Source of the DNA: Amphiura filiformis | Taxonomy: Eukaryota; Echinodermata; Ophiuroidea; Amphilepidida; Amphiuridae | Reading direction: 5' to 3' | Assembly (NCBI RefSeq): GCF_039555335.1 | Contig: NC_092631.1 | Span: forward strand, 3,413,001 to 3,477,000 | DNA length: 64,000 nt | Part shown: piece by piece, positions 26,732 to 52,873 of the stretch | How positions within the stretch are numbered: the stretch's first letter is position 1 | Layout: every line of letters starts with the position of its first letter | Notes under the pieces: generated by a model | The model's input: only the letters and a program-made list of their open reading frames with translations | Told to the model about the DNA's origin: nothing | Databases searched by the model: none | Made by a program: the position numbers and the translations under genes

Positions 26732-26987
26732 CTTTAAAACCTGGTGTACTGGGGCTTCTTTCTGGGGATGCTCTGTGATCAGGCGATCTCCTGCTGTGCT
26801 TTTTGTGATTATCTGGCCAAGGTTGTGTGGGGGACGACGCTGGACCAGGACTCGATCGGCGTCCGTTGCTACCGCGGATCGGGCTGCTTTGCCTGAGAGT
26901 AAATGGCAGTGTAGCTCGCATTGGCTGCGGGCCTGCTCTTGGGGAGGCATTTCTACGTTGGGGTCGTTGAGGCGGTTGTGCGGCCAT
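26732..26987 (-). CDS. GLCCI1: GLCCI1/FAM117-family protein, first coding exon
   Basis: The exon starts at ATG 26987-26985 and ends at a canonical donor (AAAG|GTAAGA, intron from 26731), giving 85 codons plus one base. The protein begins MAAQPPQRPQRRNASPRAGP, then QPMRATLPFTLRQSSP, a Ser/Pro/Arg-rich run, and RRSPDHRASPERSPSTPG. The SPRAG-QP-RAT-PF-L block is, from my knowledge of the family, the conserved N-terminal signature of FAM117A and GLCCI1, and RSPE/D-HR-SSPER-SP follows in GLCCI1 too. Biochemical function is poorly understood; human GLCCI1 is glucocorticoid-induced. The next exon should carry an RR(T)SSLDT block; I did not find it in the 26.7 kb to the left, so the intron is probably very long. 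The plus-strand ORF across this exon is a shadow. GLCCI1 and FAM117 cannot be separated from one exon, but neighbouring UMAD1 and RPA3 favour GLCCI1. Confidence 0.82.
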
Positions 26988-27140
26988 TATCGCAACCAAA
27001 CTTCGCCCACTTATAACCCAAAGTCCCTTTTAAAAGCTCCCAAAATTTCAATTCCTTACGATCATCGACAGCGCTAATATTGGCCCAAAATTTGGGACCC
27101 GTTTTTCCGATGTTTACTCTCTTCAGTCTGCAATCGTTTC
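26988..27140 (-). promoter_or_regulatory. Probable 5' UTR and promoter of the GLCCI1-like gene
   Basis: Locally CpG-richer sequence (GTTTCGGCAGCGCAGGCAG, TACGATCATCGACAGCGC) sits directly upstream of the start codon, with no obvious TATA box. The assignment rests on position and composition only. Confidence 0.35.
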
Positions 27141-27568
27141 GGCAGCGCAGGCAGCAGAAATTATGTAGCCTCGTCCACGAATACTAAAGCCCAAAATGGC
27201 ATGTAGCCAAATCAGGCCCAGGAAATTATTGAGCATAGCGGAAGTGATCCCAGGTCGTGCAAATTCTGATTGGAGAAATAATAATGCGGTAAATTTATTC
27301 AAAACATTGACACAACAAAGAGACCCCATATAATTATACATATAAATATATAAAGGAAAGGCAAGGGGATATCATGTAGAACTTCATAAATTTATGAACA
27401 TTCACAATTTGACAAAATACAGACCAATATTAATAAAAATGCACCGTTTTGTAGGCTGGCATGCCTGCCTGGGGCCTGCAAGTGGCCACTGCAAAATTGC
27501 AGTGGCTCCAGGTGCAGTGGCTCAGTAGGCTCAAGGGGCTGCAACCATAGACTTTAGATTTTCAACGT

Positions 27569-27990
27569 GGGGGGGACTGCAACTATGAGCCACTAGGGTA
27601 CAATTTCCAAAAGGCCTCCGAGGCCTCCCAAAAAAATGCTTACCCCCCCCCCCCCGGCCTGCCAAAAATCTGCCCCCCCCCCCCCCCCCCCCTTGCATGC
27701 CTTTATTTTTTTGGATCATCTTAAATACCGGTAGGCCTAGTCTAGAATTAGGGGCCTACTATTTATGCCTAGGGCCTACCGGTACATGTTGCAAGCACAT
27801 CAAGCAGGAAATTTTGCATATTTAAGCGTTTCCTTAGTGTTTTCCTATGCCTTTTTAGAGTGGCACCCCATAAATGTGTGCCAAAAATCGCTGCCCCCCC
27901 CTCCCTTTTGGCGTGCCAAAAATTGCCCCCCCCCCCCTTCGGCTCGCCAAAAATTTCTCCACCCCTCCCACCAGGACTCATAATTATTGC
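27569..27990. mobile_element. MITE-like element, C-run-rich, decayed termini
   Basis: The right end CATAATTATTGCACAGCCCCT matches the right end of the element at 28789-29970. The left end (GGGACTGCAACTATGAGCC) is a diverged inverse. The interior (GCCAAAAATCGCTGCCCCCC and long C runs) corresponds to 28850-29000. Boundaries are approximate. Confidence 0.45.
27639..27692. repeat. Poly-C tracts
   Basis: Two C runs of about 13 and 19 bases separated by GGCCTGCCAAAAATCTG. Run lengths may be unreliable in the assembly. Confidence 0.8.
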
Positions 27991-28788
27991 ACAGCCCCTA
28001 AGGCCCACAGGCCCAACCACAGCCACTGGGCTTTCAAATTAAGGTGAAATTTTGTGTTTACACTAATTTTGCCCAACATAAAGGTATACGGTATACATTT
28101 TGCAGGAATTTTGTGTTATCCAGGCAGGCCAATTTTGAATTTTACACCCGATTTGGGAGGGGCAAAATTCTTTTTTTGGTTTTTAGGGGTTGAAATTGTA
28201 TTTTGTAGAGATGAGGTAGGCCTATAGCAACTCAGTGGGGAGGGCCGGGGGGGGGGTCCCACAAAGACCACACTTGAACTGACGACATACATAGGGGGAG
28301 GGGTCAACAACGGTTTGAAATGGCATGGCAGTGATTTTTTTCAGTGTTTTATCCAGTCGAGGAAAGTCAGGAAACTACATGAAGGAAGTTATAAATGTTT
28401 GGGAACACCCCCTTCCTGGTGCCAGCACTCAAACTTGTCAAGACTTTAAAGAGCCTGCGATTCCGATGCTGAAAAACGGGTGGGGGGCCATGACTAAAAA
28501 TTGGTTCAATGGGTATTTAAACAGGTGCTAGACCCCGGGGCTAGACCTATTTTTAGTATTTGACCTATATAAAAAAGCCCCCCCCCCCAAAAAAAATAAA
28601 ATAATCAGAGGGGTCTTTAGTAGAACCGTTTTGAGACTGAAAATGACAGCCTGCATGGGCCATGGTGATTTATAGGCCCAAGTGTTTTGGGCCTATAAAA
28701 TCCCCAGAAATAATCAGAGACCCCAGAAGGGAGTGACACAACAAATGGGGTTATAGGATGAGGGATAGCTGATTTTGAAAACAAATGA

Positions 28789-29970
28789 AGGGACTGTGCA
28801 ATAATTAGCTCCCCATGGGCACAGTGGGGCTTTTCCTACTTATCCTTTTTTAGAGCGTTGGGCCCTATGTGGCTGGTACCCCATAAAAGAGTGTCCAAAA
28901 TCTCTTGCCCACCCTTTTTTGACATGCCCAAATTCTCTTACCCCTTCCCTCGTGTGCTTCCAACCTGCTAAGAACTGCTTCCCTCCCTCTTTTAAGTCTT
29001 TTGTCCTGCCCAAAACGACGTCCCCTTTATAAATAAAAAAAGCCATCTCTCAACACGCGATATTCAAAATTCCCGCGCCGAAATTGTCTAGAGCAGTGAC
29101 GTCCCAATAGTTCAATGAAGCCTGTCGACAAATGAGCACAAATAACCATGACGTCACTGCTCTAGAACATTTCAGCTGGAATTTTGAATATCGCGTTGAG
29201 AGACGGCTGTTTTTATTCGTTTTTATGGTTAATATGAGTTTGATTGAAATAAAACCATGTGATTCGTGCTTGATAATTATTTTTCTAACATATAAGACAT
29301 AATGTTGTGATTGCCGGACACTTCCTTTAATAATTCTATAACCCTGTTTTGGGTGTTAAAAAATTATAACCCCCCTATTTTTGGTCTGAAAATTCTATGA
29401 CCCCCCTGTATTTTTGGGACCCCCCCCCCCTTCCGAAGAAAATGCCAGCCCCCTTAGGTTCTTAGTTTCATACTAAGGGACTATTAAAAACTTACTATAA
29501 ATCTAACAAGAATTTGTCTTTAAAGAAGACAAGTTCACGGATCAGGTGTATAGTACTTTGAGCTACTTTGGTCTAACATTTAATATTCATATCTAACCTA
29601 CTCTGCACTTTAATACGACAATAAATAAGTGATATGAGGCTTAATAATGATATCTGCGTCTTGACTCTGGAAAACAATTTGTTTTAAAACCTCATTTTCG
29701 CGTGAATTTATTCACTTTCTGTACCATATTTCACAAGTTTAGCTTCAATATGGCAAAATTTTTCGCGCGCATTTGTAACATTAACTGATTTTGTCGCCAA
29801 AAGATGCCCCCCTTAGAATTTGTCTTTCCTCCCTCTGAAAAAGTGCTGGCTACGCCACTGGCCAAGAGGGTGGGGCAAGCAGTTTTTGGCAGGCTGAGAG
29901 GGGGCAAGCATTTTTAGCACACCCTTTGGAAATTTTACCCCTCTGGCTCATAATTATTGCACAGCCCCTA
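28789..29970. mobile_element. 1.18-kb non-autonomous element with about 20-bp TIRs
   Basis: Left AGGGACTGTGCAATAATTAG; right TAATTATTGCACAGCCCCTA, inverted with two changes. There is no transposase. The interior includes MITE-like C-run sequence near 29400-29440 and a nested hairpin element at 29033-29222. Confidence 0.6.
29033..29222. mobile_element. Nested hairpin MITE
   Basis: The arms run from the AAATAAAAAAAGCC area through CAACACGCGATATTCAAAAT to the reverse complement near 29176-29222. A second inner inverted pair, TCTAGAGCAGTGACGT at 29087-29102 and ACGTCACTGCTCTAGA at 29151-29166, is exact. No ORF. Confidence 0.65.
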
Positions 29971-30322
29971 ATAAATCATGGATGCTATAGCAATAGCAAT
30001 TTGAACTGCAGACTGAACCTCCTGCTGAACCTCTGGCCTCAGCAAAAAATTTGCCCAAGAAAAAGCATCACTGCATCAAAGCCTAGAAGTGGGGTGGACC
30101 CAGGAGCTTCCAGGGGTGGTCCCCCACCATCCCACCTGTTGAGGCTTGTGCTCTGCACTCACAGAAAATAGTCCCAAACAGTAGTTCAAGTTCCCAGAAA
30201 GGAAATTATTTTTACTCCCTACCCCCAGCTGTGGGATGCTGGCCGCTGTGATGTGTTAAATGTTTTAGGCCTGTTTTTACCAATCTATCAAATTCCACCC
30301 TGAAAGTCACCTCTGGAAAAAT

Positions 30323-30816
30323 CAGGGTTGGTGATTTTTTTATTTAATTTTTTTTTTTTTTTACAAAATCGATTTATTTTATTTAAATCGAATTTTGTAT
30401 TTAAATCAATTTTTAATTTTTTTTTTATTCCAAGATCTGTCATACCCCATGATAAAGTTAAGAGACCAGTGGAATGCTAGACATATGCGCAATCGTATCA
30501 GGTATTTACAAAAAATCACAATGCGTTTTCAGATGTGAACATTTTGAAGAAACAATTTGGTAAAATCATGGGAAAAAACCTGTTGAATTCTGCACCTTTT
30601 TTTAGCAATAGATAAAATGACATAGAGGTATTTAATTGTATCCAAAAGGAGTAGAAGCATTACAAATGAAGTAATAAAACAGTCAATTCAACATAGACAT
30701 TAGCTTAAATTTATCAAAATGGTAAAAGCTGAAAAAGTTGATTTAAATCAGCGATTAAAAAAAATCATTTGATTATCGTGATTTAAATCAATTGATTTTA
30801 AATCATGCCAACCCTG
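30323..30816. mobile_element. hAT-like MITE, CAGGGTTGG...ATTTAAATC family
   Basis: Left end CAGGGTTGGTGATTT; right end AAATCATGCCAACCCTG. The flanks GGAAAAAT and TGAAAAAT agree at 7 of 8 positions. Sub-terminal regions are filled with ATTTAAATC words, as in widespread animal hAT MITEs with this terminus. Confidence 0.75.
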
Positions 30817-31242
30817 TGAAAAATCCAAGAAAGAAGAAACATCAACAACATTTTTATACATCCATGAAGCTGTGCTTTCCATATATGTATGACAAATATT
30901 GCAGTATGCCGTTTAACTTTATTTTCATAACACGCTGCTTCATGATATACAAATATTATGTACAAGTACTAAATTATAAATTATTTAACAAAATTTTTAA
31001 AGCTTACATGGTTTTTGGTATACACCCATATTTTCATAAAGGGTCACAACTTCTAAGTTCCCCCTATGAAATTTTAAAATAAATTGGGAAAGTGTTTTTA
31101 TGAAATAGGAAATTATGAAGGTTATTGGTAGCCTATTTTGTTTTACACACCTGGTCCAATATACAATGTCAGACTCATAAATCATTGTGTTTAATCACAA
31201 TGGCTCACTACGTAAGGAAGATGCACTTTTGAAAGTTGCACT

Positions 31243-32956
31243 CAGGGATGCAAATTGTGCGGGAGCGGGGAGCACCGCTCCTAGGAAATGACAGTCAAAA
31301 TTGAGGAAATAATGCGTTGAGAAGAAAAAAGAAAGTGAGGAAAAAGAGGAAAGGAGAAGAAAAAGAAAAGAGGAAAGGAAGAGGGAAAGTGGAAAGAAGA
31401 GGAGGAGGAGGAGGGGAGGTACAAGAGGGAAACATGTCTCAGCAAAAGATAATAAGTTAATAGGTGAAGCAGTGAAGCTACTGAATGAAAGAGAGGAAGA
31501 CACTCAAGTGGGTAAAATATTGAGGAATTCACATGATTGTCCAAGAAATAAGAGCCTTAAGTATTAAAAGAGGAAGGTGTTGGTGTTAGAGTATACGTAA
31601 TTATGGATATGGGTAACAATGCATATTTGAGGAAATTTACAATCATTCAATGTAATTTAACAGGAAAAGAAGTTGGATGGTATAAATTGGGCACATATCT
31701 GAGGAAAATCAGAAGTGCCATTGAGGAGATGACGACCTGGAAAATTGTGACGGAATATAAAAAGAGACTAAAGCACTAAACAAGTTGTAAAGGGTAGTAA
31801 AATGGACCCATTAACATTAATAGTAGACTTCTCCTTAGTCCACTTGCCCATTGTGCATACTCTGGCATTACATTTTTAAAAGCATAAAACTCCGATTTGT
31901 GCAATTGATAGATTTTCACGTATGATATTTTCAGTCACCGTACTCCCTCTGTTTGTTAGCTTCCCAAGTGGTGGGATTTTTACTCGGGCTTTCGTGATCA
32001 ATAAACTGGTAGATTCCATAAATCAGAATTGTTCAGTAATGAAGTGAGCCGTTATAATTATGCAAGATATGTTGTATTCAATAACTTTTACTGTCACTAA
32101 ACTCTTTATGACCATTTTGCTTTTGAACGTCAGTATAATTTTGAGTTCAACGGAATGCGTTCATCATGATGACATAATTATTTTTATTTATCAAAATTCG
32201 ACTATGGCATAGTCTACATTAAGAGGTAAACATAAAAAAGGCAGTAACCCAACCACTAATGGAGATACAATGGTCAGCAAGTGTCTCCTACTGACCAGCA
32301 CGATTGAGGAATTTAAAGGGGAACAAATAGAGAAGGCCATATATCAAACTACTTGAACATGATATGCAAATTTGATTCCCTATTGATGCAAAAATTGAGG
32401 ACGTTAAAACTAAGGGGATGCTGCAAACAGATGCAAGTGCTAAGCAAATGATTCAATCTTTGTAATAATATTGTTAAAGAACACTTAGAAGAAGAAAGAC
32501 CAAATGCAAAAAAAAAAAAAAAAAAAAAAAAAACCAGGTAGGAATTTCTTGATAAGGATAAGTAATAAGAAGAGGCAAGCTAGAGTGACAAAAAAATGAA
32601 AGAGAAAAGTTCTACCTCTGACAAAAAATGAAAGAGAAAATTGGGGGGGGGGGAGCAAGGAAAAGAAAAGGAAAGGAGCATGTGTTCCAGCAAAATTCAC
32701 ACCAATCATGGGCCAAACTAATTATAATCATGATAATAATATTATCATACCAAATTTTTGTGCGCTACTTTCCCAAATAAAGCCCCTTTTGAAAGCTCGA
32801 AAACTTTACATGTAGAATCTCTTTAAAAAACCATCCTATGTTACCATTCTCATCTTTCGAAGTGCAGAACAAACCTATTTTATGTCTGGTATGATTGAGG
32901 AAATCTTGAGCCTAAAAACCTTGCTCCTGAGGAAGAAATCACAATTTGCACCCCTG
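31243..32956. mobile_element. 1.71-kb hAT-like element, perfect 8-bp TSD, no transposase
   Basis: Ends CAGGGATGCAAATTGTG and CACAATTTGCACCCCTG (16 of 17 bp inverted). GTTGCACT is exactly duplicated at 31235-31242 and 32957-32964. A purine tract fills 31311-31420 and a poly-A run sits at 32508-32533. The word TTGAGGA recurs at least seven times. No open frame of transposase size or motif is present, so it is non-autonomous, or an ORF has decayed beyond recognition. Confidence 0.82.
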
Positions 32957-33100
32957 GTTGCACTTCTGGTCGATTCAACCCTCACAAAGCATGCATAATG
33001 TAAGCTACAGTCTAGAATATTCTGCATGTTTTGTGACAATGAGTGGACAAAAATGCAACTTCCACAACGGCATCTTCTTACTGTAATACATATTGAACCA

Positions 33101-33290
33101 GGCCCGTAACTAGGGGGTGGATGCCGAAGGCCCAAAAAGTCACATTGTGAACGTAGTGAGTGAAAAATAGGGGTTTTTATGCCTTTTTGGTAAGAAATTG
33201 TTCAATTTTTGAAAAAAAAGTCCACTTTTTCAAAATCCACCCCACCAAGTCCACTTTTTCAAAATCAGCCCACACCCAATAAATCCTGAT
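33101..33290. mobile_element. Partial MITE, CAGGCCCGTA family
   Basis: It starts CAGGCCCGTAACTAGGGGG and carries the AAAAGTCCACTTTTTCAAAAT words of 13727-13896 in reverse. The right end is not clean. Confidence 0.45.
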
Positions 33291-33354
33291 TACAGGATTG
33301 TATTGCACCACTGTAACCAAACAAGTGGATCAAGTGTGTAAAACAAATATCGTA

Positions 33355-33602
33355 GAATTCCATCCACAAGCGTATGCCTCTAAATGAATGTTTTTTTGAT
33401 GAGAGACGAAAAGGAGACACCCTCTACAACAACATTACAATAGATTGGTCTTATAATAATACTTGTTTGGTTTGTACAGCCACCTGTATCAGTGATATAG
33501 CTGCTCAAACTCCAAATAATGTTTTCGTGGTGGATGTCTGCTTTTTGTCTCTTCCGTAAAAAACACTCATTTACAGGCATTATATGCTTGTAGATGGAAT
33601 TC
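33355..33602. mobile_element. MITE with GAATTCCATC termini, copy 1
   Basis: Left GAATTCCATCCACA; right TGTAGATGGAATTC. The core ATTACAATAGATTGGTCTTA is shared with the copy at 55770-55982. The short ORFs inside are not conserved between copies. Confidence 0.65.
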
Positions 33603-34216
33603 AACGATACCATTTATCATTTTTTTAATTTCGTGGACAACATTTTCTTTTCATGTATTTTAGTCAAAGGGGGAAACTCAGAATTTGTGAACCTTTTATT
33701 ACGCTATTTAAACAAAGCAATTGAAACCAGATTGATATGGACTGGTCATTTACAAGCCTTATATTCATTTTGTCAGTCAAATGCAAGAAGTTTGTCAGAG
33801 CATAATAATGAGGCCAAAAAAGTTGCTGTGTTGCTCTTACCCGCCAGACCCAATTTTTTAAAATTATTTCAGATAAAAGTTGTCAGAAAATGAAGCAAAA
33901 AATCAAAAATCAATAGTTTTCATGTGGGGTCAACACAACAATTCTTTTGGCCTACATATAATAGAGGGCTAACAATCTTCTGTATTTAAACTTTAACTTA
34001 GTACTGCCCTCACCGACTAACCCTTGATAAACAGAAGCGGAAAGCATGAGACTAAAAACTTAGCATCTAATAATAGATTGTTTTCTGAATAAACATATCA
34101 ATAACAATAATCGGTAAACCACTGCACCAAAGTGGTTCTGCCACCAAGTTTGCTGTGCAATCTGACAAATAACACCAATGTTTTAGTTTCACTCCAAAAC
34201 TAGGAATAAAGATGTC

Positions 34217-34358
34217 GACTGCTCATTACCAGAAGTGGGCAAGTGCAATAGCTGCCATATGTAGCTGCCATATGTAGATGAGTACAATATACGAGTGTAA
34301 ATTGCCAAATGCTCACAGGGCAGCTATTGCACTTACCCACTTCTGGCAATCAGCAGTC
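34217..34358. mobile_element. Short MITE with 40-bp TIRs
   Basis: The left arm 34217-34256 (GACTGCTCATTACCAGAAG...) and right arm 34319-34358 are inverse with few mismatches. They leave a 62-bp centre with a duplicated GCTGCCATATGTA. Confidence 0.75.
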
Positions 34359-36010: not shown

Positions 36011-36016
36011 ATCTAC

Positions 36017-36855: not shown

Positions 36856-37239
36856 TCAGGACACAGTGCCCTGCCAAACATAATCCTCATCTTCCAACGC
36901 CACCTCCGACTCTCGCTTCACATTCTCATCAAACTGAAAGTCATAGTCGTACTGTCTCCAGTTCACCTCCTGTAACTCTGGCACAAAAAAATCTGTAGTT
37001 GACACTGATTGACACAACATGGGTGACATCTGAAAAGGAACGTCTGCAATCCCCCAATTTGAATTGCCTGATTTGTTTAAACCAGGGCTAGTGCTCATGG
37101 TGACAGAGGCAGTCTGCATAGTTCTGTTATCACCAGGTTGTTGTAAGTGATTCCATTGTACAGGGGGTGATGACACCGACGGGTTGCTTGGGTAACTAGA
37201 ATCGACAGCTGCTGGCGGTAAACCTGGTGATCTGGTAAC
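36856..37239 (-). CDS. UMAD1: UMAD1 terminal coding exon with UMA domain
   Basis: 384 bases, 127 codons plus TGA (36858-36856). It starts VTRSPGLPPAAVDSSYPS and ends EDEDYVWQGTVS. The UMA core has the conserved VPF, a central spacer and the YDYDF...E block. The tail is acidic. Confidence 0.85.
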   Translation of the reverse strand, partial: VTRSPGLPPAAVDSSYPSNPSVSSPPVQWNHLQQPGDNRTMQTASVTMSTSPGLNKSGNSNWGIADVPFQMSPMLCQSVSTTDFFVPELQEVNWRQYDYDFQFDENVKRESEVALEDEDYVWQGTVS

Positions 37240-40200
37240 CTGGTAATTAAAGATGATATAAAAAATATTATCAGAAGATATTCACTGAGTTTAGTAGTTT
37301 ACAATGTGTTCACTTCAGAGAATTTAATCAATTGAAATCCATATACCCTCTATGGAAGACATGACCTTAATCTCCCACAGAGAGAGTTTGAATCTCAAAT
37401 GGGGATACCTGAATGGGTGACACCATTTGAAATCTATACCCCCTGTTTGGGAGAGTAAGATCATATCTTAGGGCACATGCATTTTAAATCACCTACCACA
37501 TTTCATATAGTACAAGAAAGCCATTGAACAGTGTAGCGGTTCATTCAAGCATATCGATAGACCAGTCCCTTGCCTTTGTTGATAAACAATGTCAAGTGGT
37601 CTATATGGTCAAGAATTGTTACCCTCTGACTGATGAATAACACCATAAACAAGGCAGTTCTCCTCTTGATTACATGTATGCAATTCTCGTCACCATTTGC
37701 AGTACACATCTGAATATAACTTGCTCACAAGGTTTGAGATGTGCACATGAATAAAACTATGCAGATTAGTGAAATTACATACTTTATTCCTGCCTGTGAA
37801 TTTAAGTCAACATTCCCAGTTTAGCCCAGCCCAAGACTTTAAGTTATCCATATCAGAGAGTGTTAACTGAACAGATGGACAAACAGTCTTACAGATAGAT
37901 GGAAAAGGCGATTAATGGTGCAAAATCAAACGATAGGCAGGGACTGCCTTTTGAGAGGAGTGAGAGCAATCACTCCTCTACAGCTCTTCTTAAGTTGCAT
38001 TTGCAAGAGCAATTTATAGCTCCTCTAGATTCTTTAATGGCCACATGTGCAAACAGCTCTTCTAAAGCTCTTCTTGAAGAGACCAGAAGAGCATTCTACT
38101 ATTTCTACAGTTCTTTTTTAATTTTCAAAAGGCAGTCCCTGTATAGGCGTGTAATTGTGAATGAGGACAGCAAACCCTTAAAAAAAGTTAAAATTTTAGG
38201 ATAAGCAGCAGCCACTGTGGTTTTATAGGGCATGGGTTTTTAATTGACCATTTTGGTAAATCCCATAAATCCTTGCGGTTAGACCCCAGATGTCGATGTG
38301 ACGTCAAATGCGACATCTGGGGTCGAACACACAGACTTGTGGATTTACCGAAAAGGTCAATAGGTGGCCTGCGGGTCAGATCCAACCAGCTAACCACTTG
38401 TGATTGGCCCTTCAACAGCTCTGAAATATACAAATATACAGTAAACATAGCAAAATACAGTGTATTTGGATCTCAGACACAGAACTTTGAAATGAGTTTC
38501 AGTTATCAACAGTTTATTATCCACATTCAGACATTATTATTTTTTAATGAGTCTAAGTATGTGAAAATATTGGATCCAAAACATAATAATGATAAAATTG
38601 GATGCTTTACGCCCAATATTTATTGGTCTCGCTATGAGTTTTAAATATTGGACTCGACTTCGCCTTGACCAATATTTTGAAACTCATAGCTCGACCCATA
38701 ATTATGGGCTCAATCGATCCAATTTTAAATCAATGTGTGTTCCACATTAAACCACAGTTCTGATGCCTATGAAGTGTACACATACAGTGACGTACCGTGG
38801 CCGCTCCTACCCCAGGGGGCTGAAGAAAATTAAATTTTGGCGCCCTTCCTCAACAGCCCGAAAAGGTTGACCCAATTTTTTTTCGGAAAAGTGAAGAGCA
38901 AAAAACAAAAAAAAAAAAAAAAAAAAAAGGATTTTAGGCGCCACCCTAAAAGCAACATTTCTATAGTACCATTTTTCTACTTTTTCAAAATTTTCCGCCT
39001 TTTTTTTTTCTTTACTAATTCTTTTTGCCGTCCTTCTTTTTTGCCGCCCTTCTTTTTGCCACCCATTCTTCTTCCGCTGCCCATTCGTTTTGGCCTCCCC
39101 TACTTTGACCCCTGGGGCTGGCGCCCAAATACCCCCCCAAATATGTGCATGACATGTGAGCAACTCTTTTCATAACACCCCACCAGCAAAATACCCACTA
39201 TAAGCAAGAAAATTCTGCATTTTTGTGCACAAAATGGACAATTGTTGGACTTAATTTTCAACAATATGCATATACACTGCCCTAAAAAAGTTACAGACTC
39301 AAATTGGAAATGCTTATTTTCCAGGAAAACAGCAGACCAGACAGTAACATGAGTAGGTTTATTTCACCTTGAAGGCATAGATAGTCATACAAATATGGGC
39401 TAACTTTCCCCATGGCTATCCAATATGTCATTAACTAGTAGGACTACAACTGGTATCTACTGATCAGTTTATACTCTCATTTCCACTTCTGTTGTTATAT
39501 CAGGTGGCAAGAAATGCCACACTGATATATTGTGATACAGGCGAATCTTCTGATTCTTCTTCTTCCATTTCTTTCGTCAAACCCTCTTTTAAAATGCTAC
39601 TAGTGCCATGCAGACACTTGCACCAATCTCTACCAAACTGTCTGGTCTATATTGTGCGTGATAAATAAAGTAGACAAAGTATAGATGAGTTGACTTCTGA
39701 CCTCAATGCCTGGCAGTATGCGAACGCATCATCACAATTTCCATTGTTTATTGCCTGGCAGTATGCGCGTGCATCATATTTTGTTCAGGGGTCGTGTTTT
39801 TAAAACTCCCGCCACCTCACAATAAGACTATTGAACAGTGTAGTGGTTGCATGGGGTTCACTCAAGCATAAAGATATACCGGTCCCTTGCCTTTTTTGAT
39901 AAACATTGAGGTCAACTCATCTATAGGACTTGACTTTAAAATAATTCTAACCTTTCTGGTGACATGTCACAAGACAATTTTCGAAATAAAATAGATTGAT
40001 ATTAATCCGCAATGCTATAAGGCCCGCCGATTACAGCTCTTCTAAAGCTCTTCTTGAAGAGACCAGAAGAGCATTCTACAGTTCTTTTTTAATTTTCAAA
40101 AGGCAGTCCCTGTATAGGCGTGTAATTGTGAATGAGGACAGCAAACCCTTAAAAAAAGTTAAAATTTTAGGATAAGCAGCAGCCACTGTGGTTTTATAGG

Positions 40201-42290
40201 GCATGGGTTTTTAATTGACCATTTTGGTAAATCCCATAAATCCTTGCGGTTAGACCCCAGATGTCGATGTGACGTCAAATGACGACATCTGGGGTCGAAC
40301 ACACAGACTTGTGGATTTACCGAAAAGGTCAATAGGTGGCCTGCGGGTCAGATCCAACCAGCTAACCACTTGTGATTGGCCCTTCAACAGCTCTGAAATA
40401 TACAAATATACAGTAAACATAGCAAAATACAGTGTATTTGGATCTCAGACACAGAACTTTGAAATGAGTTTCAGTTATCAACAGTTTATTATCCACATTC
40501 AGACATTATTATTTTTTAATGAGTCCAAGTATGTGAAAATATTGGATCCAAAACATAATAATGATAAAATTGGATGCTTTACGCCCAATATTTATTGGTC
40601 TCGCTATGAGTTTTAAATATTGGACTCGACTTCGTCTTGACCAATATTTTTGAAACTCATAGCTCGACCCATAATTATGGGCTCAATCGATCCAATTTTA
40701 AATCAATGTGTGTTCCACATTAAACCACAGTTCTGATGCCTATGAAGTGTACACATACAGTGACGTACCGTGGCCGCTCCTACCCCAGGGGGCTGAAGAA
40801 AATTAAATTTTGGCGCCTTCCTCAACAGCCCGAAAAGGTTGACCCAATTTTTTTTTCGGAAAAAGTGAAGAGCAAAAAACAAAAAAAAAAAAAAAAAAAA
40901 GGATTTTAGGCGCTACGCCCTAAAAGCAACATTTCTATAGTACCATTTTTTCTACTTTTTCAAAATTTTCCGCCCTTTTTTCTTTACTAATTCTTTTTGC
41001 CGTCCTTCTTTTTGCCGCCCTTCTTTTTGCCACCCATTCTTCTTCCGCTGCCCATTCGTTTTGGCCTCCCCTCCTTTGACCCCTGGGGGCTGGCGCCCCA
41101 AATGCCCCCCCCCCCCCAAATATGTGCATGACATGTGAGCAACTCTTTTCATAACACCCCACCAGCAAAATACCCACTATAAGCAAGAAAATTCTGCATT
41201 TTTGTGCACAAAATGGACAATTGTTGGACTTAATTTTCAACAATATGCATATACACTGCCCTAAAAAAGTTACAGACTCAAATTGGAAATGCTTATTTTC
41301 CAGGAAAACAGCAGACCAGACAGTAACATGAGTAGGTTTATTTCACCTTGAAGGCATAGATAGTCATACAAATATGGGCTAACTTTCCCCATGGCTATCC
41401 AATATGTCATTAACTAGTAGGACTACAACTGGTATCTACTGATCAGTTTATACTCTCATTTCCACTTCTGTTGTTATATCAGGTGGCAAGAAATGCCACA
41501 CTGATATATTAATGATACAGGCGAATCTTCTGATTCTTCTTCTTCCATTTCTTTCGTCAAACCCTCTTTTAAAATGCTACTAGTGCCATGCAGACACTTG
41601 CACCAATCTCTACCAAACTGTCTGGTCTATATTGTGCGTGATAAATAAAGTAGACAAAGTATAGATGAGTTGACTTCTGACCTCAATGCCTGGCAGTATG
41701 CTGAACGCATCATCACAATTTCCATTGTTTATTGCCTGGCAGTATCTTGCGTGCATCATATTTTGTTCAGGGTCGTGTTTTTAAAACTCCGCCACCTCAC
41801 AATAAGACTATTGAACAGTGTAGTGGTTGCATGGGGTTCACTCAAGCATAAAGATATACCGGTCCCTTGCCTTTTTTGATAAACATTGAGGTCAACTCAT
41901 CTATAGGACTTGACTTTAAAATAATTCTAACCTTTCTGGTGACATGTCACAAGACAATTTTCGAAATAAAATAGATTGATATTAATCCGCAATGCTATAA
42001 GGCCCGCCGATTACGAGCTGATCAAACTATAGTACAATAATTTTATACTGAAGCAAAATGTACACATTCACACCTGATCATATGATGGAGGAGGTGGTAC
42101 CACACCCCCATTAGGCACTGCAGATGATGTAGGCATTATTGTACTTCTCTCGCTAGCAGACTGACCCACCAATAAAAAAACCATCCTCCTCTCTTGGGTC
42201 TGATACACCGGTGGTAGGAGGTGGTGGTGTGGATGGTGTGGATGATGCAGACCTCCTACGCCTTGGGAGGTTAAAGATGGATGACAGCAT
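36856..42290 (-). CDS. UMAD1: UMA-domain protein (UMAD1-like), two coding exons
   Basis: The minus-strand gene joins 42290-42074 and 37239-36856. The first exon starts MLSSIFNLPRRRR after an in-frame stop, as UMAD1 proteins start with a short basic/aromatic head. It then has a Pro/Thr/Ser linker, REEDGF and, after a frame slip, VGQSASERST and PPPPSYDQ, a PPxY motif that could bind WW-domain (NEDD4-type) ligases. The second exon ends with the UMA signature WGIADVPFQMSPML...YDYDFQFDENVKRE (about residues 136-182 of 199). UMA domains of UBAP1 and MVB12 bind ESCRT-I; that role for this protein is inferred. The splice sites ATCAG|GTGTGA and TTACCAG|GTTACC are phase 0 on both sides. The intron is 4.8 kb and holds the tandem duplication. 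One base too many in a T7 run (42174-42180) breaks the frame. Human UMAD1 is about 137 aa, so this one is longer. Identity is supported by RPA3 next door. Confidence 0.8.
37322..37480. mobile_element. MITE of the TGGGCTATTCCAGTTG family, partial copy in UMAD1 intron
   Basis: CAATTGAAATCCATATACCC...GACCTTAATCTCCCACAG and, inversely, CATTTGAAATCTATACCCCC. Ends are eroded. Confidence 0.5.
37938..38141. mobile_element. GGAGAGC-type MITE, copy 3
   Basis: Ends CAGGGACTGCCTTTTGA and TCAAAAGGCAGTCCCTG are exact inverse repeats of 17 bp. The flanks share only ATAGG. The left breakpoint of the 1.98-kb duplication falls inside this MITE at 38054/38055. Confidence 0.75.
38055..40034. repeat. Tandem duplication unit A (1.98 kb)
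   Basis: It starts AGCTCTTCTAAAGCTC inside a MITE and ends GGCCCGCCGATTAC. It matches unit B base for base except for rare substitutions and small indels, many in homopolymers. Contents include a palindrome around 38273-38350, an A20 run near 38908, a C/T-rich MITE-like segment (38786-39180), and a sequence at 39830-39910 also found once at 37520-37615. No coding exon is recognised. Confidence 0.9.
40035..42014. repeat. Tandem duplication unit B (1.98 kb)
   Basis: Second copy of 38055-40034 in direct orientation, directly abutting. It lacks the 9 bases TATTTCTAC seen at about 38099-38107 in unit A. Other differences are run-length changes (A, C and G runs) and a few small indels such as CAAATGCGACATC versus CAAATGACGACATC. 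Sequence continues past unit B with GAGCTGATCAAACTATAG, the true end of a GATCAGCTC-type MITE. Confidence 0.9.
42074..42290 (-). CDS. UMAD1: UMAD1 coding exon 1 (one-base frame error)
   Basis: 217 bases. As read, the frame from the ATG (42290-42288) hits TAG after GGSVC. Dropping one T from the T7 run (plus-strand A7 at 42174-42180) gives an open frame to the donor with a DGFLLVG-like motif, matching the DGFVLLG of the human protein. TTATTCTACAG just upstream (42345-42335) is a good acceptor, so the exon probably starts at 42334 with 44 untranslated bases, implying a separate non-coding first exon further right. Confidence 0.78.
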
Positions 42291-44735: not shown

Positions 44736-44859
44736 TGCCTTCAAGCGTGCGGCGCATTCGATGCGATGGAACAGTTCACGCCACGCTTGAAACTGCCATA
44801 AGCGTCATTAGCGCTGCTGTAATTGGTTAGCCCGATTTTAGCCTATTCGATTTTTTTGA

Positions 44860-45052: not shown

Positions 45053-45247
45053 TCTAGGAAGGTGTCAATGCGCAAATATGTTCAGCGTATCTCCAAAGTG
45101 TCGCATCATTGAATGATGAGGGATGGGGAAGGGAAAAGTGTTAATTGATGGCCCAGCTTTCTTCTAATTCCAAATATTGAACATTTTTATCCACATTAAA
45201 AATACACAAGTTGATTTCATTCAAGATGCCTAAAGCGTTCCAAGGAC

Positions 45248-45673
45248 ATATGTGACGTGTCATGTCAAAAAGAGATACTTTTGGGCTGGTTATCAATTCT
45301 GAGGTTTTTACATATCTTAAATATAGAGATATTTTGCTCCACAACGCCATTTTCCCCAATGAAATCGGACGTTCCTAAGCGAAGATATTGAATTAAGTAA
45401 GTTATGGTATTATAAAATTGGAAATTGAGATATCGGCCTTTAAAAATATTATTGACAATGTTGAGAGTAGGAATTACCTGGAAAAATGTCTCAAAAAATA
45501 CAAGATGCCAGTTATATTCCGGTCTGAAACTCTCAGACAATAATGTTAAACATTAACATCACAAATTCGCAACAAACCCAAATTGTGAAAAAATCACCCG
45601 GGCAGATTTTTGGCTATATCTCCATTTACGATCCTGCCCAAAAGTGTCTCCTTTTGACATGACACGTCACATA
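45248..45673. mobile_element. MITE with about 40-bp TIRs (TA-type)
   Basis: TATGTGACGTGTCATGTCA...TTTTGGGC at the left and its reverse complement GCCCAAAAG...TGACATGACACGTCACATA at the right. The short ORFs inside have no domains. Confidence 0.72.
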
Positions 45674-47406
45674 TTTCGGGGATTGTAGGTTCTATAATTG
45701 ATAGATCATCAACGTATTTCAATGTTACCAATGGGGTATCAATGACTGCATCATTTACGACTGCAACGAAACTGAGTGGGCCAATGCGAGTACCCTGATA
45801 GGCACACCACCATTCAGCTTTTTCCAGTCACTAGTTTGACCGCGATAGCGTACACATTGTTCCCTACCGTACCATCTAAAAAGCTGGCAATCCAGGTAAC
45901 ATCAGTTTTGTGACCACTTTAAACTTCAACGGCCATTATTTCAATGTTCATTTTCTCGGTAAAATGGTGATTTAGGTACACGATAACTCAATAAATACAG
46001 CATCTATAGGTAAGCAATTATGTTCATTGTAAAAAGTAAATCAAGAAATCGTTTTCTCATTTTTTTTTTATATCAAGGTCCATTAAATGATATTAAGGTA
46101 AGTGTTTGTGGATTTTAAAAAGGTCATTTAGCCATAATCCCGTTAATAACCTGTCCATTCTTTATTTTCTTCTTAGCTCGCTCGCTTTCTTTCTTTTTCT
46201 GCTTTATTATTTTTGCTTCCTTCCTTCCTTCCTCCCGTACCCTTTAATATGATATTTAGTAGGCCTAATCCTGTTAACCATAAACCGTACCCGTCCGCAA
46301 GTTGGCTGTGCGCACCCGCGTGCGAGTCAAGTGTCACGCTGACGGTAAGTCAACATGGCTACATGCTATCGACAGTGCGATTTCTGCTAGCCAATGCCAG
46401 AGGACGCGTTGGTTAAATTGGCATAGCCCGTAAACAAACAGCCCCTAGGGGGTCTATATATTTGCCCGAAAAACTCACTTTTTTACTGATTTTAAGGCCA
46501 ATTATTGACTGTTTTCAACAAAATTTCGTCCCTGGTATATTTCTCGATCTCCCGTATGAATTTGGCGACATTTGGATCGAAACTGACGGAGCCTTTGATG
46601 TAGTCACAGCTCAGTGACATGGATACATACATAGATACAGCATTCCCTTATTTATAGTAAGATGCATGTCATGTCTGAGCATCGAGATAAAAATATCTCG
46701 AGAGTACTACAAATTTACAATAAAAAAAAAAAACCAGCCACCTTAAAAAAATAATAATTTTATTTTTGATACACCGTCCGTGTGTTTTGATTCGATTATA
46801 ACATTGTCATTTACCATATACCCCACACTCCGGTAACAAACTATTACTTACTTTGATAACAATGGCAAATAAAAATTAACGGTTTTGTTTTAAGCTTACT
46901 TCACTCAGTTTACATGTATGTGTGAGCATGACGGTCGATCTGTTTTGACGGAATGACATTACTTCTAAAAATAACTTGACCCAAGCCCGGAAGAACTTAT
47001 TCAGTTTTGCCAGTTTCCAGTGTCTTTTGACAGAAATGATCTATGGGAATGATAATCTTGAGCAAAAATGATAACGAGAACCATTTTAGGGACTCACTTA
47101 TTTGCATATTTGATTGATTGGTTGACAGGTGTGTCAAAATATTATCCACTTTTAAAAGAATAATAATGATAAGATTAAAACATAATAAATAAAAAACATC
47201 ATTCGGGTTTTTTTGATGGATGAAAATATATTTTTGCCGAGTATAAGTCTTGGAATTTCAAAACTTTAGAGCTGTATAGAGATGATGAACGAGGCTGATT
47301 GACCTCTGACCCCTCATTCCGCGCCATCTGCGATTGCGAAGAGAAACAAAGTTCAGATCACCAGTTTGCATTTCAATTCAGCTTGATTTTGTCGAATTTC
47401 TGGATT
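45674..47406. other. UMAD1/RPA3 shared upstream region, right part
   Basis: There is no coding exon. A CpG-rich patch at 46270-46440 (GCGCACCCGCGTGCGAG) contains a perfect donor ACG|GTAAGT at 46345, and the RPA3 coding exon is preceded by an acceptor-like GGATTTTTCAG ending at 47410. A non-coding RPA3 first exon in the CpG patch is therefore possible, making it the candidate bidirectional promoter. Confidence 0.35.
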
Positions 47407-47419
47407 TTTCAGCATCAAA

Positions 47420-47506
47420 ATGGACCAACCCAAGCCACGAGTCAACGGTTCAATGTTGCCAAAATATCAAGGACAGTGTGTGTGCTTGTTAGGCACAGTG
47501 AAAAAT
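47420..47506 (+). CDS. RPA3: RPA3 exon 1 (coding part)
   Basis: 29 codons from ATG in AGCATCAAAATGGACC to the donor AAAAT|GTAAGT. Encodes the N-terminal strand region ending LLGTVKN. Confidence 0.92.
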
Positions 47507-50500
47507 GTAAGTAAGCTTAACTTTAAGCATCATTCATGCATCATAATAGCCCGGGCCGGGCCCCCAACTCAACACAAAGTCAAAAGTTGACAACCATGAG
47601 CATGATGAGAGTTACCAAATCTTTGAAAGGCCCCCTTTGCAATGATAACAACGAGTAAACAAAATGGCTGGGAGAACTGAGAAAGTCGTGTTTTTTAAAA
47701 AATGTTTCATCGTGACGATCAGAAACCTCAAAAAACTCATTTTTTGGCCGATTTGGATGAAAATGGTGTCAAAATGCTCAGGAGATCATACTGCATCAAA
47801 TAAGCCTGTTCCCTAAGAAATATGAAACATCACCCTTTTTAAAAGGCTGTTTAACCTACCCCTATTATTATATCATATTTCCGTTGTAGTAAAGGTAAAA
47901 TCGGAAGTCATTATCGAACCCTGCTTGCAGACAGGGCTCGATTTAGAGGGGTTTTACATGCACAGATGCATGTAACATTGGTTGTGTGCATGTAACATTT
48001 TGCCTGCGCAAGATATTCAACCCATATTCAAGGATGATCTGAAGTGGTGCATGTAACTTTTATTTTCTAAATCAACCCCTGCTTGCAGGCACCATCCACC
48101 AGTGTTTACTCAGAGGCCATGTCGTAATTTTTGCCCAGTGAAAATTTTGACCTTTCGTATTGAAGATATGGAATTTTTTTCCCAAAACACAAAACAAATT
48201 AGGTCTTTTTGGGAAAAAAATCCATATCTTCAATATGAAAGGTCAAAATTTTCAATTAATTGCCGGCTTTTCCTCCCAGCTACATACACTTTAAAAATAT
48301 GTCATTAGATTTATAAAATTTACTTGAGGACTGTTTTATATCAAAATGTGAAAAATATCAAATTTTAATAATTTGTCATAAAATTTGTATTATATCGTGA
48401 ATTTCAAAAATGAAAATTATTTGATATCAGAAAGACATTCTTCGTATTCAGAATGCAATTCGATATGTCTGATGTGCTCTCATGTCCCACAAAAGTACTG
48501 TCGACACGCTCCAAACGCTCATTCCAGATCCCTTAACCCTTTGAACCCGACGAGCCGCCATAGTGGCTCACGGTAACCTGTACCGTAGTCCCGATGAGCC
48601 GCTATAGAGGCTTCTACCATGGTGTGTCAAGAACCTGAAGAGTCGCTAAAGCGGCTCACGTAACATCAGTTGCGATATGTTTTGTTTACATCAGAATCCT
48701 TTGGCTATCTGGGAGACCGGGGTTCAGGGGTCGGAGACCTTTTCTTTCGGCGTGGCGGGCAAAATGCTGAGGCGATTTTCGAGTGCATTAGGAAGCTCAG
48801 GGTTGGATGTATGGGACTATGTGGTAGGCCAGGGTTCAAAGGGTTAAGCAGCCTTTTCTTTACAGAAACACTGACATGATTTTGCATGTAAAATAGGCAA
48901 TTCCCGGACATTGTAGACTTTGAGGGCCAGTCATAAAAAGTAATGACGGTCAACCTATATTTTTTCCAGCCAGAGGGATCAGGCAAGGGCTGATTTCAAC
49001 CATCATAGCTGTCACTTAAAACTGAGTCACTTCTGTGAAGAAAAAATGATGTTTGCTTGGGTCAAATTTAGCAATTTTTTTTTTTATTAAGATTGTGACC
49101 AACAAATAGTCATTGTAGATGTAGACTCGTAGCCGTGACTACATGTATCTGTTGTAGCCATTCAACCCTGAAATTATGAAATTTGCAAACCTATAAAAAA
49201 GTATATTTAATTTTTTTTTCAGATTGATGGCAATGGTCAGTCTTTTGTCATGACTCTCAGCGATGGTGTAGATGTAGACGTATTTGTTCAGGACCCAGTA
49301 AGTTAACTAAACAACATTTAACTCAAATAAACAAAACATTCAACCTACTTATGCATCATTATTATGTTTTGATCAGTGTTTACTCAGAGGCCGTATGTCT
49401 CAATTTTGGCCCAGTGAAAATTATTTTTGTCTCACAAAAATTTGTAATGCTGTATTACAATTAGTGAATTTAGGGAATTACTGGGCCAAAATTGGCCAAT
49501 TTGTGAAGAAAATGTTTCATTTGGTGCACCCAATTTCCAGAGAGAGTAAACACTGGTTTTGATGTATCCAAGTGTGAATGGATGCAAAACATTATATTGA
49601 TCAAACTGGATGCTTGACGGCCAATATTTATTGGTAGCTAGAAAATATTGGACTAAAATATATGTCTTGTCCAATATCTAAAACTTATAGCTCGACCAGT
49701 AAATATTTTATATTGAGTTGTACATAATTATAAAATGAGGTACAGTATTTAAAATGAGGGTTTATACCAATTATTATATTGCTGTCTTTGGTGCATGCAT
49801 GTACATTGCGGAATCTGAACCCTCCACCTTTGAATCTAGACTGCATTGATCCCCTCCCGCACATCGACATCGCCTGGCTAATAATTACTTTGTCAGCAGA
49901 GATACTAAAATAAATACCCAGGATCGATACACTTGAATTTGCTATGCACGAGTTTGATATGAGAAGAAAATCTTTGGATACCGGGGTAGAAAATGATGAA
50001 TATCTCCCGTAAATGATTTTGTATAAAGAAACCAGATGTGTTCCCTTGCACTTGAATATATATTTTGAACAGATATGATAGTCGTTAGCTTGCGTCTTGA
50101 GAAAGAACCGTGCGTCTTGAGTCAAAAACTGACAATAATTGTGATTTATATGTGCCGAATTATATAGCGCAGTGTATAGGCCAATCGTTGAGGTAGTCAG
50201 TGTTCGATTTACCTGGATTCGCATCGCAAAATGCGAGTCATTTTTTACAAACTGCTACTCAACTACACAGACCAGTAGCAAAAAATGCGATCCAAAAAAA
50301 TTGGGGAAAATGCCTACTTGCGACCGTGAACCACACTGATATACCATCATTTGCAAGTTACCATTTGTCTAAGTCAAAAATGCTTCCATAAATTCCATTT
50401 CCAAGAAAATCATCCACAAAAACATGACCCAAAAGTCCCCAAATCGTAATGTTTTCGCCATTAAACTAAATACAGTATCCTCCCTTATATGCAAATTTCC

Positions 50501-52873
50501 TTTTCATGACGTGTTGTGTTCCATACTTTTATGTATTACCAGATAACAAAAAACATGCATATTCATTTATGACGTCATAGAAGTAGCAATGTTTTTATGG
50601 GTGTATAGTTCAGTGGTGAGACAAAAATATCGTGTTTTCTTGGTGACAATCTTCCAAAATTACACAAGATTTTTAGGCTTTCATAGATTTCTCACATTAT
50701 TTTAATGCTTCAGGTAGTAAATAAGTGAGTTTCCTCTACTCAAAAATGTAGGATTTCTCTTGATTACTGAAGGAAAATTTGTGTTTAGAAAGGGCACATA
50801 TGATAATCAGCTAAGTTTAGGTGCCGAATTTTGAACCACATTCAGTCTGCAACACTGCAATTGCAAAACGTTGCCCCGGGACGTTGCCTCTCTACTATGT
50901 TCACTGGCCCATATGGTAAAGTTTCACATCATCTAGTAAATTTCCTTCCAAATCACAAAATTACCCAGTAATATTAAGCTTAACAAATGTTACAGTTTTC
51001 CATGCGTGGGTGGGGTATGTGGTAATCATTGTTGCAATTTCAAAACATGATCAGCTATCAGATGCATGGATGGGAAGGGCAATTTTATAACTAGAATAAG
51101 GTGGATTTTTCCAGAAGGCGAGGCCTTTCTCTTTTCCAATAGGGGCCTAAAGATGGTATCCATGCAGTGCTTGATTTTTGTCTATTTTTTTAAGCATTGA
51201 GTACCGGGATTGAGTAATCTGTGAGAAGACAAGAAAATACAAAAAAATCGATAAAATATGGTGAAAACAAACTGCTACTCAAAATTTTGGAATTGCTACT
51301 CAAATCTGAAAGTGAGTAGCAATTTTTGCTACACAAAAAAATAGATGAAAATCGAACACTGGAGGTAGTCTAAAAGAATATGACCTATGGCGTACGTGCT
51401 CAACCCACACATCAGCGAGGTCAGTAACCGGCTAATCGGGGCTATTGTCAGTAGCCTTAGTCAGATGTCCTTCGGCCCATTATGCGTCAAAACTATTAAA
51501 CAGGTCGATACAAAATGGCCATGCGTGGCGGTGGATTCAACCTACCATGGCATTTCTGCCTGAAGATATTGGAGCGATGCCACTGTGTCCCGGTTGGTAT
51601 GCCACTGATGTGCTCTAGAGATAAGACTTTCTTGGATTGGTTCATAATCATCAATAATATGCTATTTTTATTGTTGCAGCTACAAGATATGATTGAAGGT
51701 TTAACAGAAGTAGTTGGTGAAGTGGGTGCTGATGCAAGACAAATTCAATGTCAGCATTACATTAACCATGGAACAGTAGACTTTGGTAGGTACACTAGTA
51801 CTCAGGGACCATGTGACAGGACATGGCTTCCACTCATTGTTGCTGGTTTACAAATTATCAACAGCAGCTTTGGAATTCAGAATTTTTTATGCATCTAGCA
51901 AAATAATCTGCTGTCAAAATATCTCTTGGTATATTCCACACATTTCAGTGTGTTAATCTATGACATAATGATGCTATTAATGCTAAATTCGACAGTTGAA
52001 CAAGCACTTATAAAACTTTAATAGACCCTGGTACCAATCCCAGCACAGTTACATTTCCAGGATTGTGTAGCAAATTTATAAAATTGCAATCCAATGCTAA
52101 ATTTGACAGTTGAACAAGCACTTATAAAACTTTGATTTATAGACCCTGGTACCAATCCCAGCACTGTTACAATACAGCATGTGGCTTGTCTTGTACAATG
52201 GGAAAGGAGCCTACATGTTTACCTCTTATAATATACTCTAGAAATGCCAACATAAATCATCAAAGAACAATATTATATCAGTATCAAAATCAGTAGGAAC
52301 AGAAAGCGTATACATGGTGTACACATTCCAGGAAAATGTTTATTAGTTTGTTTGTTTGTTTATACTTGGACCAATTTAGGTAAAAGCAAGGATTGTGCAA
52401 ATTCATCAGGAACTGGTATCCAGCAAATTCCTTCAGAGGTGGCTATATCTGTTCTTTTTGATTATCGCGTAAAAAGAACTGTTACCATTGAATGGGGTGC
52501 CAATGCCAATCAGAATCCCACGCCATAAACAGCACCAAATCGGTAGACTGCTGAAGAACCTTGCTGGAAACTATAGGAACTTAATCCTCGCAAAGATATT
52601 AGTAAATTTGGGAAAAATTTTTTAAATTCTTGTGAAGATGGTGAATATTCTACTTTAATTAGTGGGATATTAACAACATTGAATTTCAAAAAAGCTGCAA
52701 CTTCCAAAATTTGTTTTGCTTGATTAAAATGAGCAAGGAACGCATAAATATTTTACTGAAGACAATTTCTTCTTTTCATTTCAGACTTGAATTTATATGA
52801 TGAAGCTTGCAAGATGACACAGGAGTTTCCAGATTTCTACAAAGTAGGGGTGACTGCACCTCCACCACAATAA
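47420..52873 (+). CDS. RPA3: Replication protein A 14-kDa subunit, complete four-exon gene
   Basis: Joining 47420-47506, 49223-49297, 51680-51785 and 52785-52873 gives 118 codons and a TAA; human RPA3 has 121 aa. The protein opens MDQPKPRVNGSMLPKYQGQ, matching the human PRSRINAGML region, and continues VCLLGTVKN, SFVMTLSDGVDVDVFV, GLTEVVGEV and VDFDLNLYDEACKM, ending EFPDFYKVG. These are the OB-fold strands and the C-terminal helix that packs with RPA1 and RPA2 in the trimer core. RPA binds single-stranded DNA in nuclear replication, repair and recombination. All introns have GT...AG ends; introns 1 and 2 are phase 0, intron 3 phase 1. The gene is head-to-head with UMAD1, as in human. No broken residue or frameshift was seen, and hAT-like MITEs sit in the introns. 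Longer ORFs overlapping exons 1, 3 and 4 read through splice sites and are not the real product. Confidence 0.93.
47932..48081. mobile_element. hAT-like MITE in RPA3 intron 1
   Basis: Ends CAGGGCTCGATTTAGA and TCTAAATCAACCCCTG; flanks CTTGCAGA and CTTGCAGG (7 of 8). The interior repeats TGCATGTAAC three times. Confidence 0.75.
48098..48532. mobile_element. Partial foldback element in RPA3 intron 1
   Basis: 48098-48140 resembles the left end of the MITE at 49374. From 48140 on it matches the right arm and centre of the large element at 63083-63979 (ACCTTTCGTATTGAAGATATGG with its inverse CCATATCTTCAATATGAAAGGT, then the arm ending CCAAACGCTCATTCCAGATCCC). It is followed directly by TTAA and another MITE. 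The left arm is lost. Confidence 0.6.
48537..48843. mobile_element. TTAA-flanked MITE in RPA3 intron 1
   Basis: Ends CCCTTTGAACCC and GGGTTCAAAGGG, flanked exactly by TTAA (48533-48536 and 48844-48847), the piggyBac-type signature. The interior has repeated GAGCCGCTATAG/GAGTCGCTAAAG words. Confidence 0.78.
49223..49297 (+). CDS. RPA3: RPA3 exon 2
   Basis: 25 codons between the acceptor TTTTTTTTTCAG and the donor CCA|GTAAGT. Encodes IDGNGQSFVMTLSDG and the following strand. Confidence 0.9.
49374..49555. mobile_element. hAT-like MITE in RPA3 intron 2, perfect 8-bp TSD
   Basis: Ends CAGTGTTTACTCAGAG and AGAGAGTAAACACTG. GTTTTGAT is exactly duplicated at 49366-49373 and 49556-49563. Confidence 0.85.
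50198..51361. mobile_element. 1.16-kb hAT-like element in RPA3 intron 2, perfect 8-bp TSD
   Basis: Ends CAGTGTTCGATTTACC and AAAATCGAACACTG. GAGGTAGT is exactly duplicated at 50190-50197 and 51362-51369. Near both ends the word ACTGCTACTCAA recurs. No transposase-like ORF. Confidence 0.85.
51680..51785 (+). CDS. RPA3: RPA3 exon 3
   Basis: 106 bases between acceptor TTGTTGCAG and donor TTTG|GTAGGT. Encodes LQDMIEGLTEVVGEVGADAR and QIQCQHYINHGTVDF. Confidence 0.9.
51981..52170. repeat. Tandem repeat in RPA3 intron 3
   Basis: A unit beginning TGCTAAATTCGACAGTTG at 51981 recurs at 52095 (114-bp offset). It includes AGACCCTGGTACCAATCCCA, with a few differences between copies. Confidence 0.8.
52785..52873 (+). 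CDS. RPA3: RPA3 exon 4 (coding part)
   Basis: 89 bases after the acceptor TTCATTTCAG to TAA at 52871-52873. Encodes the rest of Asp90, then LNLYDEACKMTQEFPDFY and a short Pro tail. Confidence 0.92.

Follow-up and report, generated by a model that had tools for sequence, protein, structure and literature searches.

We begin by considering the genes carried by a stretch of 64,000 nucleotides from Amphiura filiformis (contig NC_092631.1, positions 3,413,001 to 3,477,000), called the window below. This is animal DNA rich in transposon remnants, and besides the transposon genes three protein-coding genes can be read in it. From left to right these are a gene of FAM117/GLCCI1 type on the minus strand, a UMAD1-like gene on the minus strand, 9,868 bases further on, and RPA3 on the plus strand, with 5,129 bases between the start codons of the last two. 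The UMAD1-like gene and RPA3 are divergent, and the FAM117-type gene follows the UMAD1-like gene head to tail. An earlier note on this DNA had proposed three such genes on these strands, and all three are present. The question is "does this order belong to the same ancient block of genes as human 7p21?"

The gene on the plus strand is a complete RPA3, which encodes the smallest subunit of replication protein A, in four coding exons. Exons were located by tblastn with human queries, and the Pfam scan was then limited to open frames and spliced products; the human queries and comparison sequences were RPA3, UMAD1, GLCCI1, FAM117A, part of FAM117B, MVB12A and MIOS. Coding exon 1 (47420 to 47506), found with the RPA3 query, starts at the ATG and is followed by a GTAAGT donor; exon 3 lies at 51680 to 51785 and exon 4 at 52785 to 52873, the last position being the final base of the stop codon. 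Exon 2 (49223 to 49297) comes from a search by phase and splice sites between the flanking exons. Among the 56 candidates scored (AG..GT, right phase) it shares first place, at 28.0, with a pair of overlapping candidates at 51078. The acceptor of that pair is poor, and exon 2 is preferred for its better acceptor TTTTTTTTTCAG and its GTAAGT donor. All three introns are GT..AG with consistent phases. The spliced product of 118 amino acids matches PF08661 (Rep_fac-A_3) from end to end of the profile (positions 1-105 of 105, E=8.8e-23, 81.1 bits, cut-off 23.5) and human RPA14 nearly end to end (E=3.5e-19); 41 of the 114 columns aligned with the human protein are identities (36%). Exons 3 and 4 by themselves also find human RPA14 as their best match (E=3.8e-08). 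The open frame with exon 3 alone matched no RPA family and no structure, and NCBIfam returned no match for the RPA3 product or for the UMAD1-like product.

At the left of the block lies the FAM117/GLCCI1-type gene, of a family of poorly understood function in regulation. Its coding exon 1 (26732 to 26987, minus strand) carries QPMRATLPF, RRSPDHRASPERSP and RRSPDHRASPERSPSTP, and is followed in phase 1 by a GTAAGA donor. Exon 2 (66 to 220, minus strand; IRRTSSLDTIYLSGHWPR) lies outside the span of the earlier note and has a phase 1 acceptor, so that both sides of the junction are in phase 1 across an intron of 26,511 bases. The two exons spliced together match PF15388 at 28.2 bits (cut-off 27), at positions 1-27 of 310 only because the later exons would fall outside the window; exon 1 alone matched no Pfam family. 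Compared with GLCCI1, neither exon 2 nor the spliced pair (score about 154-156) is equalled by any of 1000 shuffles. Within the family, exon 2 scores 85 against the part of FAM117B, 78 against GLCCI1 and 69 against FAM117A, and the two exons together score about 154 against GLCCI1 and 125 against FAM117A, in a comparison from which the start of FAM117B is absent. Because exon 2 favours FAM117B and both exons favour GLCCI1 over FAM117A, the left gene is, judged by these scores, a member of the FAM117 family in which GLCCI1, FAM117A and FAM117B cannot be told apart. In a non-vertebrate a single gene is expected to represent all three. The proposal of a GLCCI1/FAM117-type first exon holds at the level of the family and goes no further, exon 2 alone scoring highest against FAM117B. 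The remaining GLCCI1 exons had been expected further left, where exon 2 does lie (220 to 66); for most of the rest of GLCCI1 the best match in the window has E=0.40, and later exons would sit past the window's edge. A search for FAM117 in 14 control genomes, with no animal among them, gave 0 and is uninformative.

Between these two lies the UMAD1-like gene, whose two coding exons on the minus strand join in phase 0. Exon A (42074 to 42290) has an N-terminal EEDGF followed by LLVG, where the human counterpart reads EADGFVLLG, together with the segment PPPPSYDQ; exon B (36856 to 37239) has the UMA domain and the stop codon. Compared with human UMAD1, the N-terminal part is equalled by 0 of 1000 and 1 of 500 shuffles, the UMA part by 3 of 1000, 1 of 500 and 0 of 1000 in three separate runs, and the whole protein by 2 of 1000 and 2 of 500. 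Among the UMA residues, the VPF (V89 P90 F91 in human), Tyr (Y125) and Phe (F127) are kept. Loss of V89 P90 F91 in human UMAD1 abolished ESCRT-I binding, and Y125, F127 and E130 were likewise mutated, in a paper that describes UMAD1 as conserved across vertebrates (PMC10445733). The intron between exons A and B holds a tandem duplication of about 1.98 kb (38053 to 42019), the copies of which are 97.7% alike and differ by 7 substitutions and 21 gaps; 15 of the gaps are of a single base, and 10 of those 15, by eye, alter the length of a single-base run. This duplication is either very recent or an artefact of the assembly. The segment PPPPSYDQ (42074 to 42097) contains a PPxY-like motif that is not in the human UMAD1 sequence used for comparison. 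PPxY motifs often bind WW-domain ubiquitin ligases. A search of solved structures with the UMAD1-like protein gave one weak match, mL42 (E=0.13), which is unrelated.

As a control for chance, tblastn with the human queries was run on 60 order-3 Markov resampled windows and on the reversed window. The best RPA3 match is 33.9 bits in the real window, against a maximum of 24.3 in the resampled windows and 23.5 in the reversed one; the corresponding values are 34.3, 29.6 and 23.9 for GLCCI1 and 25.4, 23.9 and 20.0 for UMAD1. UMAD1 is the weakest of the three in this control, with a small margin over chance. The 33.9-bit RPA3 alignment crosses intron stop codons before it reaches exon 4, and the spliced product is therefore the better evidence for RPA3.

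The spacers between the genes can be examined through their CpG content. Methylated gene bodies are expected to lose CpG and promoters to keep it. We infer methylation in the source species from the low CpG of the window (median observed-to-expected ratio 0.51 over 127 overlapping 1-kb windows), and methylation in most invertebrates is found mainly within genes that are highly transcribed, over their bodies (PMC11292947). A CpG-preserved stretch at 45800 to 47000 lies in the gap between the start codons of the UMAD1-like gene and RPA3 and is a candidate shared divergent promoter; within it, the window 46001-47000 reaches a ratio of 1.09, the second of the 127. Another preserved stretch, at 26601 to 27400, covers exon 1 of the FAM117-type gene and is a candidate promoter, with 0.91-1.02 in 400-bp windows, 0.77 and 0.29 in the half-overlapping neighbours, and 0.23-0.48 in the other 400-bp windows out to 26.0 and 28.8 kb; the 1-kb window over it (26501-27500) has 0.85 and is the tenth of the 127. 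The top ten 1-kb windows include three at 45.5-47.5 kb and this one over FAM117 exon 1. A scan of 45800-47420 for 13 motif patterns, with mononucleotide shuffles giving the expectation, found CCGGAA once (0.3 expected), ATGGCGS once (0.2), TTTGAA once (1.7), a full NF-Y site once (0.2), CCAATS twice (1.2; one of the two is the NF-Y site) and TATA-like sequences twice (2.1), so that the factor motifs of the gap are near chance except for single NF-Y-like and YY1-like sites. In a bidirectional promoter pair the divergent start sites lie within about 1 kb and share one promoter. A 5' untranslated exon of UMAD1 was not found. The CpG peak between the divergent start codons fits a shared UMAD1/RPA3 promoter without proving one.

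Combining these results, we consider the window to hold a three-gene animal microsynteny, FAM117-family (minus), UMAD1-type (minus) and RPA3 (plus), with a probability of about 0.8, and we infer that this order and that of human 7p21 go back to one ancestral block. The order and strands of GLCCI1, UMAD1 and RPA3 at human 7p21.3 we take to be the mirror image of those in the window. As for the neighbourhood, the gene list of one human chromosome 7 haplotype names GLCCI1, ICA1, COL28A1, MIOS, RPA3 and UMAD1 (PMC5958065), a 7p21 variant sits in introns of both RPA3 and UMAD1 (PMC7509520), and in pig RPA3, UMAD1, GLCCI1 and MIOS are named in one region (PMC10500877, PMC7724110).

Several points weigh against this reading. 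The papers cited support the human neighbourhood only, and not its order or strands. The 11 kb to the right of RPA3 showed no MIOS exon, the best match in the whole window being E=3.6. Exon 1 of the FAM117-type gene, taken alone, is equalled or exceeded in its score against GLCCI1 by 2 of 1000 shuffles, and composition therefore accounts for part of its GLCCI1 likeness. A transposon-like element or its immediate surroundings account for four of the top ten CpG windows (15.0-22.5 kb), and two more fall at 59.5-61.0 kb, in a region without a recognised gene; the highest ratio in the window, 1.22, is at 60001-61000. E2F, NRF1, DRE, Sp1 and full ETS sites were all absent from the UMAD1-RPA3 gap. 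For the middle gene, the EEDGF and LLVG halves stand in different frames, with the change at a run of seven T (42174 to 42180), and human E130 is replaced by Asp. Its only Pfam match is the MVB12 family PF10240, at 14.9 bits below the cut-off of 22 (E=0.013 with exon B alone, 0.021 spliced), and its UMA domain taken alone scores 42 (z 4.5) against UMAD1 and 39 (z 4.7) against MVB12A, in a comparison that covered these two UMA proteins.

The alternative that survives best grants that the order is real and holds that it was retained passively, in a slow-rearranging genome where ancestral linkage stayed unbroken and no regulatory constraint acted. We give it nearly even odds and regard it as about as likely as a shared promoter. 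Transposon-like pieces and repeats occur in the spacers and in the introns (the first FAM117 intron carries reverse-transcriptase pieces and an integrase-like piece), so the length of these stretches is free to change, and whether constraint or low recombination lies behind microsynteny is called unclear (PMC8851819). The position of the CpG peak, inside the divergent UMAD1/RPA3 gap, speaks for regulation instead. The counts in the same paper can be turned either way: the 70 blocks passed on to the vertebrate ancestor are fewer than shuffled genomes yield (110, 120 and 124), which indicates that survival into human is not the rule, and the same figures mean that the blocks of vertebrates, taken together, are no more numerous than chance would give under the loose criterion of that paper (PMC8851819).

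With regulation as the cause, a shared promoter near 45.8-47.0 kb, firing both ways, would be a likely reason that UMAD1 and RPA3 stayed together; we hold this promoter tentatively, at somewhat less than an even chance. FAM117 may have been kept because its upstream control region overlaps the end of UMAD1, or its link may simply be unbroken, and between these two the odds are about even. The fuller picture, in which the trio is as old as the bilaterians or older, a one-promoter UMAD1/RPA3 core couples a replication subunit with an ESCRT-I subunit that acts in cytokinetic abscission, and FAM117 is a downstream partner, we think doubtful as a whole.

A different objection is that the middle gene could be of MVB12A/B type, or another UMA protein, in which case just two of the three neighbours would match human. 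The Pfam match and the UMA scores given above both leave room for this, and the UMA domain alone does not, in these comparisons, separate UMAD1 from MVB12A. Exon A appears to do so: it encodes a short N-terminus with EEDGF and LLVG, whose resemblance to UMAD1 is seldom reached by shuffles though it is read across the frame change, and no N-terminus of MABP type was seen, the PF10240 match being confined to the C-terminal end of the profile (159-251 of 253). Leaving the neighbourhood aside, what supports UMAD1 is the N-terminal motif, together with the architecture and the UMA residues, and we judge the MVB12-type alternative improbable. The earlier identification of the UMA-domain gene as UMAD1 is borne out by the first two of these; the UMA domain alone fits MVB12A equally. 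The best family matches of the two minus-strand genes are FAM117 and MVB12/UMA, not unrelated families, as the earlier note had counted on. Its use of the neighbourhood as independent support for the UMAD1 call is circular if that neighbourhood is then called conserved.

That the UMAD1-like locus is a decaying copy, with a working gene elsewhere, is suggested by the frame change in exon A and is very improbable, given that nothing is broken in the splice sites, the two flanking frames or the UMA exon, that an internal in-frame ATG at 42184 would yield a shorter intact protein, and that the gap pattern of the tandem copies points to run-length errors in the assembly. The frame change at the seven-T run is itself likely such an error, because the tandem copies in the adjoining intron differ mostly by short gaps. 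Run-length errors of this kind may occur elsewhere in the assembly too.

Sets of at least three neighbouring genes preserved between animal phyla are an established kind of gene arrangement. The ancestor that cnidarians share with bilaterians is credited with 162 new blocks and the bilaterian ancestor with 256, and 91 and 85% of the two oldest block sets were lost in vertebrates (PMC8851819). RPA3 does not occur in the main text of that paper. In the literature searched, with most subscription journals outside its scope, we found no report that names FAM117/GLCCI1-UMAD1-RPA3 as an ancient block. Searches for UMAD1, RPA3 and GLCCI1 together returned human association and pig studies; GLCCI1 with synteny returned no paper, and RPA3 with microsynteny a sorghum paper only. 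In two papers returned for RPA3 with bidirectional promoter, RPA3 is a knock-down control, and the papers listed for RPA3-UMAD1 mostly concern lung disease in rheumatoid arthritis.

As an example of long-lasting gene order the trio is credible, though fairly ordinary. An ancestral order would lengthen by one the list of blocks that lasted into vertebrates. The trio also offers a testable case for asking whether, across animals, a single promoter serves both a gene of replication and a gene of abscission. If the reading is true, UMAD1 would exist outside vertebrates; a UMAD1-like gene in a non-vertebrate, a source with which the 36% identity of RPA3 and the divergent UMAD1 agree, adds modest interest, and the gene here is a candidate invertebrate UMAD1 sequence for work on ESCRT-I. 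At human 7p21, on which the trio has a bearing too, one variant has been associated with the expression of RPA3 and with rheumatoid arthritis lung disease (PMC7509520).

Transposons and repeats surround the three genes. Inside the FAM117 intron, a GC-rich element at 15000 to 22300 (57% GC at 16001-20000) contains a reverse-transcriptase piece (E=0.002, below the cut-off) and an integrase SAM-like piece (E=4e-05), and 15016-15204 matches 22282-22093 in inverted orientation at 96.4%; the element is presumably a tyrosine-recombinase retrotransposon of DIRS type. In the same intron, a reverse transcriptase at 9672 to 10986 is read in two overlapping frames (PF00078, E=4.4e-12 and 1.5e-07) and is, we assume, of LINE type. 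Just right of RPA3, a Tc1-type transposase is open over 364 amino acids at 53407 to 54501 (PF01498, E=8.2e-17; DDE_3, E=6.3e-12); its first catalytic Asp motif, judged by eye, seems to be missing. The 1-kb window with the highest CpG ratio, 60001-61000, may hold a promoter for some gene not recognised here, or it may be a young repeat; one open frame at 59.5-61.0 kb has no Pfam match, and an inverted repeat lies at 60101 to 60278. Ten more open frames, six of them in the right flank, gave no Pfam match at 0.01. That flank has 41 open frames of at least 60 amino acids, of which the Pfam scan covered 7 (the Tc1 frame included). Rfam and tRNA scans of the window returned 0 each.

Compared with human UMAD1 (PMC10445733), the UMAD1-like protein is likewise short, with an N-terminal DGF-type motif and a C-terminal UMA domain that keeps the VPF, Tyr and Phe; it differs in having Asp for E130, the extra PPPPSY (PPxY-like) segment and a longer C-terminal tail. 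At the level of the locus, RPA3, UMAD1 and GLCCI1 are neighbours at human 7p21.3, and in the window RPA3, the UMAD1-type gene and the FAM117-family gene are adjacent, in what we take to be the human order and strands. The human block includes MIOS and ICA1, whereas here MIOS was not found in the window and the ICA1 side lies beyond it. Human RPA3 and UMAD1 overlap, one variant being in introns of both (PMC7509520), whereas 5.1 kb separates their coding parts in the window. Like the ancient metazoan microsyntenies (PMC8851819), the trio has three unrelated genes together in distant animals.

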